Shown: piece by piece, positions 34,871-37,371 of the stretch
How the letters are laid out: the number at the start of each line of letters is the position of its first letter
Numbering within the stretch: the first letter of the stretch is position 1
Assembly (NCBI GenBank): GCA_030916565.1
Contig: JAUPWL010000005.1
Coordinates: 1 to 37,371 of the forward strand
DNA length: 37,371 nt
Source: Patescibacteria group bacterium
GTDB taxonomy: Bacteria; Patescibacteriota; Saccharimonadia; Saccharimonadales; Saccharimonadaceae
Direction of reading: 5' to 3'
Program-made: the position numbers and the translations under genes
The notes under the pieces: generated by a model
The model's database searches: none
Told to the model about the DNA's origin: nothing
What the model saw: the letters and a program-made list of their open reading frames with translations, nothing else

Positions 34871-34899
34871 TTGACATTTATAAGCACAAGTGCTATAGT
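34871..34899 (+). promoter_or_regulatory. Promoter TTGACA-17-TATAGT with extended -10
   Basis: TTGACA (34871-34876), a spacer ending TGC, and TATAGT (34894-34899). Confidence 0.75.
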
Positions 34900-34924: not shown

Positions 34925-35119
34925 ATGCAAAATGATTCAATGGACGAAGTAATTAATTATCATGACGATAACCGCGTGCTTCGTTATCTGTTGCATAACG
35001 TCAAAGGACTCAGCCCTGTTTCAGGTGGCGTGCTAGGCGATGCTCTGGAAGAAGAGTACAAGACCGCCGAAGAAGAATACCGACCAGAACAAGAAATTGA
35101 TTTCGAACTAGAAGTATAA
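34925..35119 (+). CDS. Small acidic hypothetical protein
   Basis: This 64-aa protein is strongly acidic (ends EQEIDFELEV), with a possible helix in RVLRYLLHNVKGL and a Gly-rich turn SPVSGGVLGDAL. It has no Cys or membrane segment. It has a strong promoter and an SD-less, A-rich leader. It lies 21 nt upstream of argS, though argS has its own -10. No family recognised. Confidence 0.6.
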   Translation: MQNDSMDEVINYHDDNRVLRYLLHNVKGLSPVSGGVLGDALEEEYKTAEEEYRPEQEIDFELEV

Positions 35120-35140: not shown

Positions 35141-36772
35141 ATGGATAACAAAATTGCTCAGATTGTACACGATACATATAACATCGATGTTGATGTTGCC
35201 GTATCACGCCCTGAACCGCAGTTCGGTGATTACGCGACTAATGTTGCGCTGCAGTTGGCGGGACGGTTGGGTCGTGCACCCCGCGAAATCGCCGATGAAA
35301 TCGCCGAAAAACTTCGCAGTACGAATGAGTTTGCTGATGTAACTGTTGCAGGTCCTGGCTTTATTAATCTCAGACTTTCGAATGAAGCACTGTTAGATCT
35401 GACGAAAAAAGAACCTATTCCTCATCGAGCAGGACAAACGGTTGTTATTGAAACAAATAACCCTAATCCGTTCAAAGCAATGCACATTGGCCATGCCTAC
35501 AACGCGATTCTTGCTGATACAATTGCCAATTTGCTGGCTGTTGATGGCGCGCGCGTTCGTCGTGTGAGTTATCATGGCGATGTTGGTCTGCACGTCGGTA
35601 AAAGTATGTGGGCAATCCTGCGTGAAACTGGCGGTGATATCGAAAAACTGTATGCAATTGAACCTGCGGAACGTAATCGATTCATGAGTAAAATGTATGC
35701 CGAAGGTTCGAACGCTTATAAAGAATCCGAGGATGCCAAAAGAGAAATCGATGAATTGGCTAAACAGTCATTTGTCCTCGATAATCCAACATACAAGGCG
35801 ATTTATGAACTGTGCGCAAAGTGGAGCTATGACGATATCGATCGTATTGTCGCCGAAATAGGCAATGTCCCAATTGAACGTCGGTATGTCGAGAGCGAAA
35901 CTGAACAACCAGGCAAAAAACTCATTATGGATCATACACCCGGTGTGTTTACGCAATCAGATGGTGCATACATCTTTGAGGGTAGTAAATACGGGTCATT
36001 CGACAATGTTTATATCGGATCAAACGGTAATGGGCTGTATGGGGCGCATGACATGGGGCTGGTACGGCTGAAATATGCAGATTATCCTGAGCTGAGTGAG
36101 AGTATTGTCGTGACTGGTGGCGAACAGGGTGCGTATTTTCGTGGCGTTATCGCAGCCAGTGAAATGGCAATTCCAGAACTAAAAGGCAAATTGAAAAACT
36201 TTCCAACCGGATTGGTGAAATTGAGCACAGGCAAAATGAGTTCGCGTACCGGTGATGTGATTGAAATTGGTTGGTTATTTGATCAGTTTAAACAAGCAAT
36301 CGTTGAACGCGGTGGTGAACCAACGAGTGAAATTATTGCGGGTGCGCTGCGTTATCAATTCCTCAAGGTCAAAATAGGAAGCGACGTTGTGTTTGATGTA
36401 AACCAAGCGGTCAGCCTAACGGGGAATACCGGCAGCTATCTGCAATATACACACGCTCGTGCACGGAGGATTCTAGAAAAAGTAGGTGGTAATGTCAGTC
36501 GACCAACAGAGGTGAATGAGGAAGACAAGACGCTCGTACGCAAGCTGGGTGAATACCATGAAATTATTACACTGGCAACACAGACACTCGAGCCGCACTA
36601 TATCTGTAATTACCTATTTGAGCTAGCACAAGAGTTCAACCGCTACTATGAAAAGAACCAAGTTGTTGGTGATGAACATGAACAACACCGTGCCGGGCTG
36701 GTGGCGCTTTATGCGGATACACTCCGCGCTGGGTTACTGACACTTGGCATTGCAGCGCCCGAAAAGATGTAA
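35141..36772 (+). CDS. argS: Arginyl-tRNA synthetase
   Basis: This 543-aa class I synthetase has an N-terminal ArgRS-specific domain (about 1-80), NPNPFKAMHIGHAYN with HIGH at 115-118, a KMS-like loop LSTGKMSSRTGDV and a C-terminal anticodon-binding helical domain (YLQYTHARARRIL; EFNRYYEKN). It charges tRNA-Arg and needs tRNA for activation. Length is normal. Confidence 0.97.
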   Translation: MDNKIAQIVHDTYNIDVDVAVSRPEPQFGDYATNVALQLAGRLGRAPREIADEIAEKLRSTNEFADVTVAGPGFINLRLSNEALLDLTKKEPIPHRAGQTVVIETNNPNPFKAMHIGHAYNAILADTIANLLAVDGARVRRVSYHGDVGLHVGKSMWAILRETGGDIEKLYAIEPAERNRFMSKMYAEGSNAYKESEDAKREIDELAKQSFVLDNPTYKAIYELCAKWSYDDIDRIVAEIGNVPIERRYVESETEQPGKKLIMDHTPGVFTQSDGAYIFEGSKYGSFDNVYIGSNGNGLYGAHDMGLVRLKYADYPELSESIVVTGGEQGAYFRGVIAASEMAIPELKGKLKNFPTGLVKLSTGKMSSRTGDVIEIGWLFDQFKQAIVERGGEPTSEIIAGALRYQFLKVKIGSDVVFDVNQAVSLTGNTGSYLQYTHARARRILEKVGGNVSRPTEVNEEDKTLVRKLGEYHEIITLATQTLEPHYICNYLFELAQEFNRYYEKNQVVGDEHEQHRAGLVALYADTLRAGLLTLGIAAPEKM

Positions 36773-36785
36773 TGCAACCGCACGT

Positions 36786-36814
36786 TTGACCTAGGTCGGG
36801 TGGTGTAGTACATT
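36786..36814 (+). promoter_or_regulatory. Promoter of the leader-peptide/attenuator transcript
   Basis: TTGACC (36786-36791), a 17-bp spacer and TACATT (36809-36814). The ATG of the leader peptide follows after 7 nt, so this mRNA is also leaderless. Confidence 0.65.
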
Positions 36815-36821
36815 AAGTGCT

Positions 36822-36896
36822 ATGGGAACAATCTCTCGGACAAGCACTAGCATTCTCGGTCTTATCGTGATTATTAGTGACGCCTCGGCGAGATAA
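36822..36896 (+). CDS. Ile/Leu/Val-rich leader peptide (24 aa)
   Basis: A 24-codon frame whose residues 11-18 read ILGLIVII, with five Ile in total; the rest is mostly Ser, Thr, Arg and Ala. It begins at the predicted +1 of its own promoter. Its last codons and stop overlap arm 1 of the attenuator. This is the pattern of ilv-type leader peptides, which sense charged tRNA-Ile/Leu/Val through ribosome stalling. The peptide itself probably has no function. Confidence 0.65.
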   Translation: MGTISRTSTSILGLIVIISDASAR

Positions 36897-36943
36897 CCTG
36901 CTTTACACGCAAAACCATCTCGCCGACACAGGCGAGATTTTTT
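36885..36943 (+). promoter_or_regulatory. Transcription attenuator with mutually exclusive hairpins
   Basis: Arm 1 TCGGCGAGAT (36885-36894) pairs perfectly with arm 2 ATCTCGCCGA (36917-36926) to form an antiterminator. Arm 2 pairs instead with arm 3 GGCGAGA (36931-36937), followed by TTTTTT, to form a terminator. A ribosome reaching the leader stop covers arm 1 and permits termination; one stalled at the Ile codons leaves it free. Confidence 0.75.
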
Positions 36944-37078
36944 AGTAAAGTAGACTTCCCAAGACGTCACTGACCGTGGCGCAATGCGGAGTTATACTCC
37001 GAGGTGACACCTGAACAGGGCCGATCACCAAGGTGGCCGAGGAACACACCCATTCCTCGGCCACCGACCAGCAACTTC
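36944..37078 (+). other. Hairpin-rich non-coding stretch after the attenuator
   Basis: It holds GTCAC...GTGAC (36966-37008) enclosing CGGAG-TTATA-CTCCG. It also holds a 13-bp stem GGTGGCCGAGGAA / TTCCTCGGCCACC (37032-37065); the GGTGGCC arm can alternatively pair with an upstream GGCC...CACC (37019-37029). No U-tract follows. It may be a small RNA, an additional attenuator, or a leader element. No gene of normal size is present. Confidence 0.5.
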
Positions 37079-37106
37079 TTTACACCGATAATGAATCATA
37101 TACAAT
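37079..37106 (+). promoter_or_regulatory. Promoter of the MscL-like gene
   Basis: TTTACA (37079-37084), a 16-bp spacer and TACAAT (37101-37106), then a leader with AAAGGGG before the ATG. Confidence 0.55.
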
Positions 37107-37141: not shown

Positions 37142-37371
37142 ATGGCTGATAATAAGAAGACTGTAAAAAAAGCAAAAGTAAAAGCGACCGCTGTCAAAGC
37201 ACGTGCCGTTGAAAAAGCAGTTGCCGTTAAGGAAAAACGCGTCGTTCAACCTATCGCGAAACATTCATCTGGATTCGTTGATTTTATTCGTAATCAAGGC
37301 ATCGTTGGCGTTGCCATCGGTTTGGCTATTGGTAGCGTTGCGGCCGGTGCGGTGAAGACAATTGTTGAAGG
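37142..37371 (+). CDS. MscL-like mechanosensitive channel, 3' end outside the window
   Basis: The first 76 codons are visible. A basic, low-complexity N-terminus (about 1-42, rich in Lys, Ala and Val) is followed by GFVDFIRNQGIVGVAIGLAIGS and AAGAVKTIV. That matches the start of an MscL first helix: amphipathic FxxFIR, then the small-residue pore helix with GxAIG. MscL opens under membrane tension to release solutes. The 40-residue basic extension before the domain is longer than in E. coli MscL. Good SD AAAGGGG. Confidence 0.7.
   Translation, partial: MADNKKTVKKAKVKATAVKARAVEKAVAVKEKRVVQPIAKHSSGFVDFIRNQGIVGVAIGLAIGSVAAGAVKTIVE

Follow-up and report, generated by a model that had tools for sequence, protein, structure and literature searches.

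A probable branched-chain amino acid attenuator between argS and mscL in Saccharimonadaceae and its varying downstream products

Introduction

Between argS and an mscL-like gene of a Saccharimonadaceae bacterium lies a short isoleucine-rich reading frame, followed by two competing RNA stems that resemble a transcription attenuator. What does such an element sense, and what does it control? The preliminary description of the locus proposed that it senses isoleucine, perhaps as supplied by a host, and that it may control an RNA or a channel. We analysed the locus in what we call the window, the entire 37,371-nucleotide stretch (contig JAUPWL010000005.1 of GenBank assembly GCA_030916565.1, positions 1 to 37,371), which forms contig C29 in a draft genome of 0.95 Mb that is 87% complete, and compared it with related genomes. 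These relatives are almost all metagenome assemblies, and kinship among them was handled only through counting genera. All features are on the + strand and all coordinates are those of the window.

Results

The gene upstream of the element is argS, encoding arginyl-tRNA synthetase (35,141-36,772; Pfam DALR_1 1.8e-28, Arg_tRNA_synt_N 1.1e-22), which holds this position in nearly all related loci. Further upstream, the best promoter-like site of the region (34,871-34,899; TTGACA-17-TATAGT, preceded by TG) is followed by an uncharacterised ORF of 64 amino acids (34,925-35,119) just before argS. The next ORF after the leader is homologous to MscL (37,142-37,371) and is cut by the contig end, in keeping with the earlier observation that no branched-chain gene follows. 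Taken by itself, the truncated copy in the window gave no match in a Pfam search; the full-length relative matched PF01741 (E=2.9e-9). The genes beyond position 37,371, which the preliminary description had proposed to identify, are the C-terminal part of mscL, found on contig C50 of the same assembly, and then msrB. Across the family argS and mscL remain neighbours; the space between them is either closed or occupied by an insert of 300-1700 nt, and it resembles a hotspot for insertions. In several other genera (loci L052, L061, L096, L105) it is filled by an unrelated gene of approximately 350-390 amino acids, apparently one family with a common motif around NCYGYTIVASECLD; in L097 and L112 it holds a membrane protein of about 210 amino acids, and in L115 (G135) a protein resembling type IV pilins, which has a prepilin-type N-terminus (TGFTIVELLVVIVVIGIL) and whose C-terminal part is long.

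Inspection of the sequence placed the promoter, the leaderless leader ORF, the 10-bp antiterminator and the six-T terminator where they had originally been described. The promoter consists of TTGACC (36,786-36,791), a 17-nt spacer and TACATT (36,809-36,814). A box scan of the window alone performs at chance level, and conservation is thus the real test of the promoter. All nine genus members that carry the element have a TAnnnT -10 box 6-8 nt upstream of the leader start codon, and in most of them this box runs into the end of argS. They have no conserved -35 box. Compared with sister species, the window has approximately 30 extra bases (36,773-36,808) between the argS stop and the leader -10 box. 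These bases provide the -35 box TTGACC and shift the promoter off the argS stop codon. The leader ATG at 36,822 is only 7 nt past the -10 element, so transcription is expected to start at or within about a base of the ATG, and the proposal of leaderless initiation is supported by the nine-genome comparison. The leader ORF (36,822-36,896) has 24 codons and would encode MGTISRTSTSILGLIVIISDASAR followed by a stop codon; homologues are present in nine of ten genus members and in many other genera. Its predicted translation contains a run of putative control codons, ATT CTC GGT CTT ATC GTG ATT ATT (ILGLIVII; 36,852-36,875), supported by the positional enrichment of Ile, Leu and Val described below. 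The antiterminator 5' arm TCGGCGAGAT (36,885-36,894) spans the final codons of the leader and reaches one base into the stop codon. It is complementary in all 10 bp to the 3' arm ATCTCGCCGA (36,917-36,926), which is shared with the 5' arm of the intrinsic terminator (36,917-36,943), an 8-bp stem (36,917-36,924/36,931-36,938) with a 6-nt loop and TTTTTT at 36,938-36,943. The antiterminator and the terminator are thus mutually exclusive through one common arm. No membership in a curated Rfam leader, T-box or riboswitch family was found: at the gathering threshold Rfam returned only tRNAs, and at a relaxed threshold nothing better than chance at the locus.

When 41 relatives were searched at the DNA level, three other genus members matched at the position of the element. 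When the regions were fetched, the leader and attenuator were found upstream of mscL in nine of ten genus members; the exception, G002, has an argS-mscL distance of 105 nt. The same anatomy was present in 19 of 48 argS-mscL inserts (a count that includes one genome twice) compared with 1 of 960 dinucleotide shuffles, as judged by a detector that requires a short ORF with its stop codon at an arm able to pair with the 5' arm of a terminator, requires nothing else, and is blind to amino-acid content. A covariance model recovered the locus in nine of the ten genus genomes with E-values of 1e-11 to 1e-15, these nine being its own training set. An independent model, built only from other genera with a different stem type, matched several genus members outside its training set (for example G004, E=9e-5; G006, E=4.4e-4). 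In the family as a whole it reached E<=0.1 in 50 of 394 genomes, with E-values under 1e-3 in about 30 of these. Searches outside the family gave no convincing match to the element. Among 17 loci that were read, 15 have argS on the upstream side and 13 have mscL on the downstream side, and in two of the four loci lacking an adjacent mscL the gene is known further on. Leaderless starts recur in other genera (g51, G051, G124, G121), and other leaders, g34 and g52 among them, have a longer 5' end and a Shine-Dalgarno-like AGGA or AAGGA.

Both the reading frame and the stems are therefore conserved, within the genus in nine of ten members and beyond it in many genera of the same family, as the preliminary description would predict. 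It had also proposed to look for covariation. Between genera the stem type switches from CGGCGAG to CCTCGGC with complementarity kept, whereas within the genus the stems are almost invariant and carry no information on antiterminator covariation. A codon-position substitution test within the genus likewise revealed no coding bias.

The view that the element has no obvious target gene holds for the window species and four sisters but not for most relatives, in which a winged-helix gene stands right after the terminator. This cargo gene is small (mostly 70-120 amino acids), begins 50-100 nt past the terminator and is preceded by a Shine-Dalgarno sequence, often ACAATTnGGAGGAGAA. Its Pfam matches are below cut-off and point to winged helices; PADLOC and PHROGs searches with the cargo proteins returned nothing useful. 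AlphaFold models of two unrelated cargo groups (pLDDT 87 and 78) both display the H-E-H-H-E-E topology of a winged helix. The first model has weak PDB matches, mostly to winged-helix DNA-binding proteins (RTP, PadR, MarR; best E 4e-3), and the fold matches of the second are weaker still. All-against-all comparison of 39 cargo sequences sorted them into three components (20, 10 and 4 members) plus five singletons, a grouping that cuts across genera. In this set G215 and G233, of the same genus, have differing cargo, and that of G233 matches the cargo of G176 from another genus at 1e-18. The constancy of the attenuator under a changing product is the most unusual feature of the element. The G+C content of cargo genes often exceeds that of the surrounding DNA (markedly so in L010, L092 and L099, at 60-67% with neighbours at about 48-55%), which may reflect exchange from elsewhere. 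In L118 (G071; gap 267-1016, with a short stretch masked as N) two consecutive small genes follow the attenuator, the first of them related to the winged-helix cargo of other genera.

In five genus members, the window species, G004, G007, G008 and G009, no winged-helix gene is present at the locus. The space between the terminator and the mscL promoter is occupied instead by 100-150 nt of structured sequence. In the window this contains a candidate non-coding RNA of three hairpins (36,986-37,066; fold z-score -6.7), a layout common to the window, G007, G008 and G009. The middle hairpin (37,003-37,029) is a 5-bp stem around the conserved loop CACCTGAACAGGG. The loop CACCTRAACAGGG is kept in all four species, all 20 stem cells are paired, and four of the five pairs have changes on both sides; none of 500 shuffles was as good on paired cells or on covariation score. 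An alternative register that was considered first fails, and the 5-bp register holds. Within 198 family genomes the motif occurs only at this locus and in four genomes. The unit probably ends at a long terminal hairpin (37,032-37,065), whose arms form a perfect 13-bp stem; all nine element-bearing genus members have a long hairpin of differing sequence at this place, including G004, which lacks the middle-hairpin motif. Reading by eye for a conserved short ORF in this region of the window and its sisters yielded only unrelated peptides of 9-14 amino acids. The structured RNA at 36,986-37,066 is the likeliest regulated output in the window genome, which favors the initial guess that the element may control an RNA. 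Our reading, which rests on four species, is that a non-coding RNA would have taken the place of the protein in this lineage.

The same region could instead be what remains after loss of the winged-helix gene, with the attenuator a relic and the RNA functionless debris plus a terminator hairpin. The main winged-helix group has no member elsewhere in the window genome, where at 87% completeness a moved gene could be missed, and G004 lacks both the winged-helix gene and the RNA motif; both observations would fit such a loss. Decay is at odds with the leader and stems, which are intact in all five species without the winged-helix gene, and with a middle hairpin whose loop is conserved, and whose stem covaries, in four species. 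We therefore regard a relic as unlikely, although it fares better than the explanations considered below.

As the gene that comes next, in a synteny found throughout the family, mscL might also be thought to be controlled by read-through, together with msrB behind it; mscL would be the channel of the original proposal. The mscL gene has a separate promoter (37,079-37,106; TTTACA-16-TACAAT) predicted from a box scan and conservation, and its -10 box, TACAAT or TAGAAT, is kept just upstream of mscL in all nine element-bearing genus members, which agrees with the separate promoter first suggested for this gene. A long, strong hairpin separates the two units, and in many family members argS-mscL is kept without the element. 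These observations do not support control of the channel, which we consider improbable.

To characterize the signal we counted codons in the 18 leaders found by the detector. At codons -7 to -12 before the stop, 84 of 108 (78%) encode Ile, Leu or Val, compared with 49 of 295 (17%) elsewhere, and the other reading frames of the same leaders contain 6-11%. Leaders beyond these 18 were picked partly by hydrophobic runs or sequence models, which makes the codon statistics of the full set of 26 somewhat biased. In that set CTC accounts for 66% of leader Leu codons (13% in argS/mscL of the same loci), GTG for 56% of Val (32%) and ATT for 68% of Ile (52%). The unbiased 18 leaders agree, with CTC at 31 of 44 Leu codons, and in nine of ten genera CTC makes up at least half of the Leu codons of the run. 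As CTC persists in genera with the CCTCGGC stem, to which it could no longer pair, the codon rather than base pairing seems to be selected. A general branched-chain signal would follow from the Ile/Leu/Val enrichment together with the CTC bias, and we infer that the leader responds to charged branched-chain tRNAs, Leu-CTC foremost. The earlier idea of isoleucine sensing is corrected in this respect: the signal would be branched-chain amino acids in general rather than isoleucine alone, and Leu-CTC is the most biased codon. The run in the window is an Ile-rich version of the branched-chain theme.

A hydrophobic stretch at a fixed position is also what might be expected if the nascent chain itself (..LILVII..) stalled the ribosome when a drug or another ligand is present, as in the arrest peptide ErmCL with its IFVI motif. 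The attenuator would then sense that ligand instead of tRNA charging, and some leaders do have Met, Phe or Cys in place of Ile, Leu or Val. Residues in the stretch interchange freely (I, L, V, M, F) while the Leu codon is strongly biased to CTC, a pattern that fits tRNA sensing, and no resistance gene is found downstream. We consider an arrest peptide an improbable explanation of the leader.

A search for ketol-acid reductoisomerase (KARI) did not find it in the window genome, with 14 of 14 control genomes positive and marginal matches in two incomplete sister genomes. This makes it plausible that the element senses amino-acid supply from a host.

Folding with a ribosome footprint on the window RNA gave opposite structures for the two positions of interest. 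With the ribosome at codon -8 the antiterminator fold was obtained (-18.4 kcal/mol), and moving the ribosome to the stop codon gave the terminator fold (-13.8 kcal/mol). Across 26 loci, the terminator forms in 25 when the ribosome is at the stop and is absent in 13 when it is stalled. The remaining half keep the terminator in the equilibrium fold, and there the antiterminator would have to form first, co-transcriptionally. Ribosome-mediated attenuation that responds to branched-chain amino acids is very probably how the element works. In the mechanism we propose, transcription would start at the leader ATG, so that a ribosome loads at once. When Leu, Ile and Val tRNAs are charged, it would reach the stop codon and mask the overlapping first antiterminator arm; the terminator would then form and a short RNA of about 120 nt be released. 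When these charged tRNAs are scarce, the ribosome would stall, allowing the antiterminator to form and transcription to read through. That the terminated RNA, of a length predicted from sequence, is itself a small regulatory RNA with an incidental antiterminator is very improbable, given that the attenuator of the relatives precedes a gene with a strong ribosome binding site and that the codon run of the leader seems to be under selection.

Discussion

Taken as an attenuator, the element probably lets a shortage of charged branched-chain tRNAs open transcription into a winged-helix gene in most relatives, or into a structured RNA here and in three sisters, with mscL separate. The analysis shows the anatomy, its conservation, the codon enrichment, the predicted folds, the covariation of the RNA hairpin and the cargo families shared between genera; what we infer is the actual stalling, its signal, the read-through and whatever role the RNA or the protein has.

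Multivalent branched-chain leaders are familiar from ivbL and ilvL of E. coli, ivbL having a valine-rich run shortly before its stop. The present leader is likewise multivalent; unlike it, those of E. coli have a Shine-Dalgarno start and biosynthetic targets. In its output the element resembles whiB7, which belongs to a different regulator family and responds to a different signal. For whiB7 of actinobacteria, as cited in PMC13236596, attenuation at a uORF governs a transcriptional regulator rather than an enzyme, a precedent for the leader ORF and attenuator that precede a putative regulator in the relatives.

Three further counterparts come from Corynebacterium and Mycobacterium. The ilvBNC leader of C. 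glutamicum, MTIIRLVVVTARRLP, is rich in Ile/Leu/Val codons and has its start codon one nucleotide from the transcription start (PMC11857589); it shares with the element a near-leaderless start and a translation-dependent choice between antiterminator and terminator. Its target is biosynthesis, in contrast to the regulator or RNA here, where the layout is simpler and has no evident anti-antiterminator hairpin. The M. tuberculosis ilvB1NC leader uses the same type of codons (LVVI), and a ribosome at its stop codon masks the antiterminator (PMC13236596); it differs in its 166-nt leader sequence and in preceding a biosynthetic operon. Mycobacterial leaderless polycysteine short ORFs (Canestrari et al. 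2020, as cited in PMC13236596) are described as controlling cysteine biosynthetic genes by translation attenuation, and are similar in being leaderless short ORFs that sense an amino acid, which is cysteine in that case. By its target the element falls outside the class of ilv/leu biosynthetic operon leaders, with no branched-chain biosynthesis gene downstream. Our literature search, which reached few subscription journals, found no relevant paper on such elements in Saccharibacteria or CPR. The mechanism is familiar from ilv operons. What is new to us is the wiring, with a regulator or RNA as output and no KARI gene found.

More tentatively, and at slightly less than even confidence, we suggest that the attenuator is a fixed regulatory socket into which fast-changing DNA-binding proteins are swapped, and that in the window lineage the output would have changed to a structured RNA induced by starvation in cells unable to make these amino acids. 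Parasitic Saccharibacteria may in this way sense their food supply without the ability to make Leu, Ile and Val. Gene regulation in Saccharibacteria is little known, and a conserved attenuator offers a testable handle on how an epibiont senses the nutrients of its host, and on what it switches on. If true, the swapping of products under a constant attenuator, together with the substitution of an RNA for the protein, would be unusual as a pattern of evolution.
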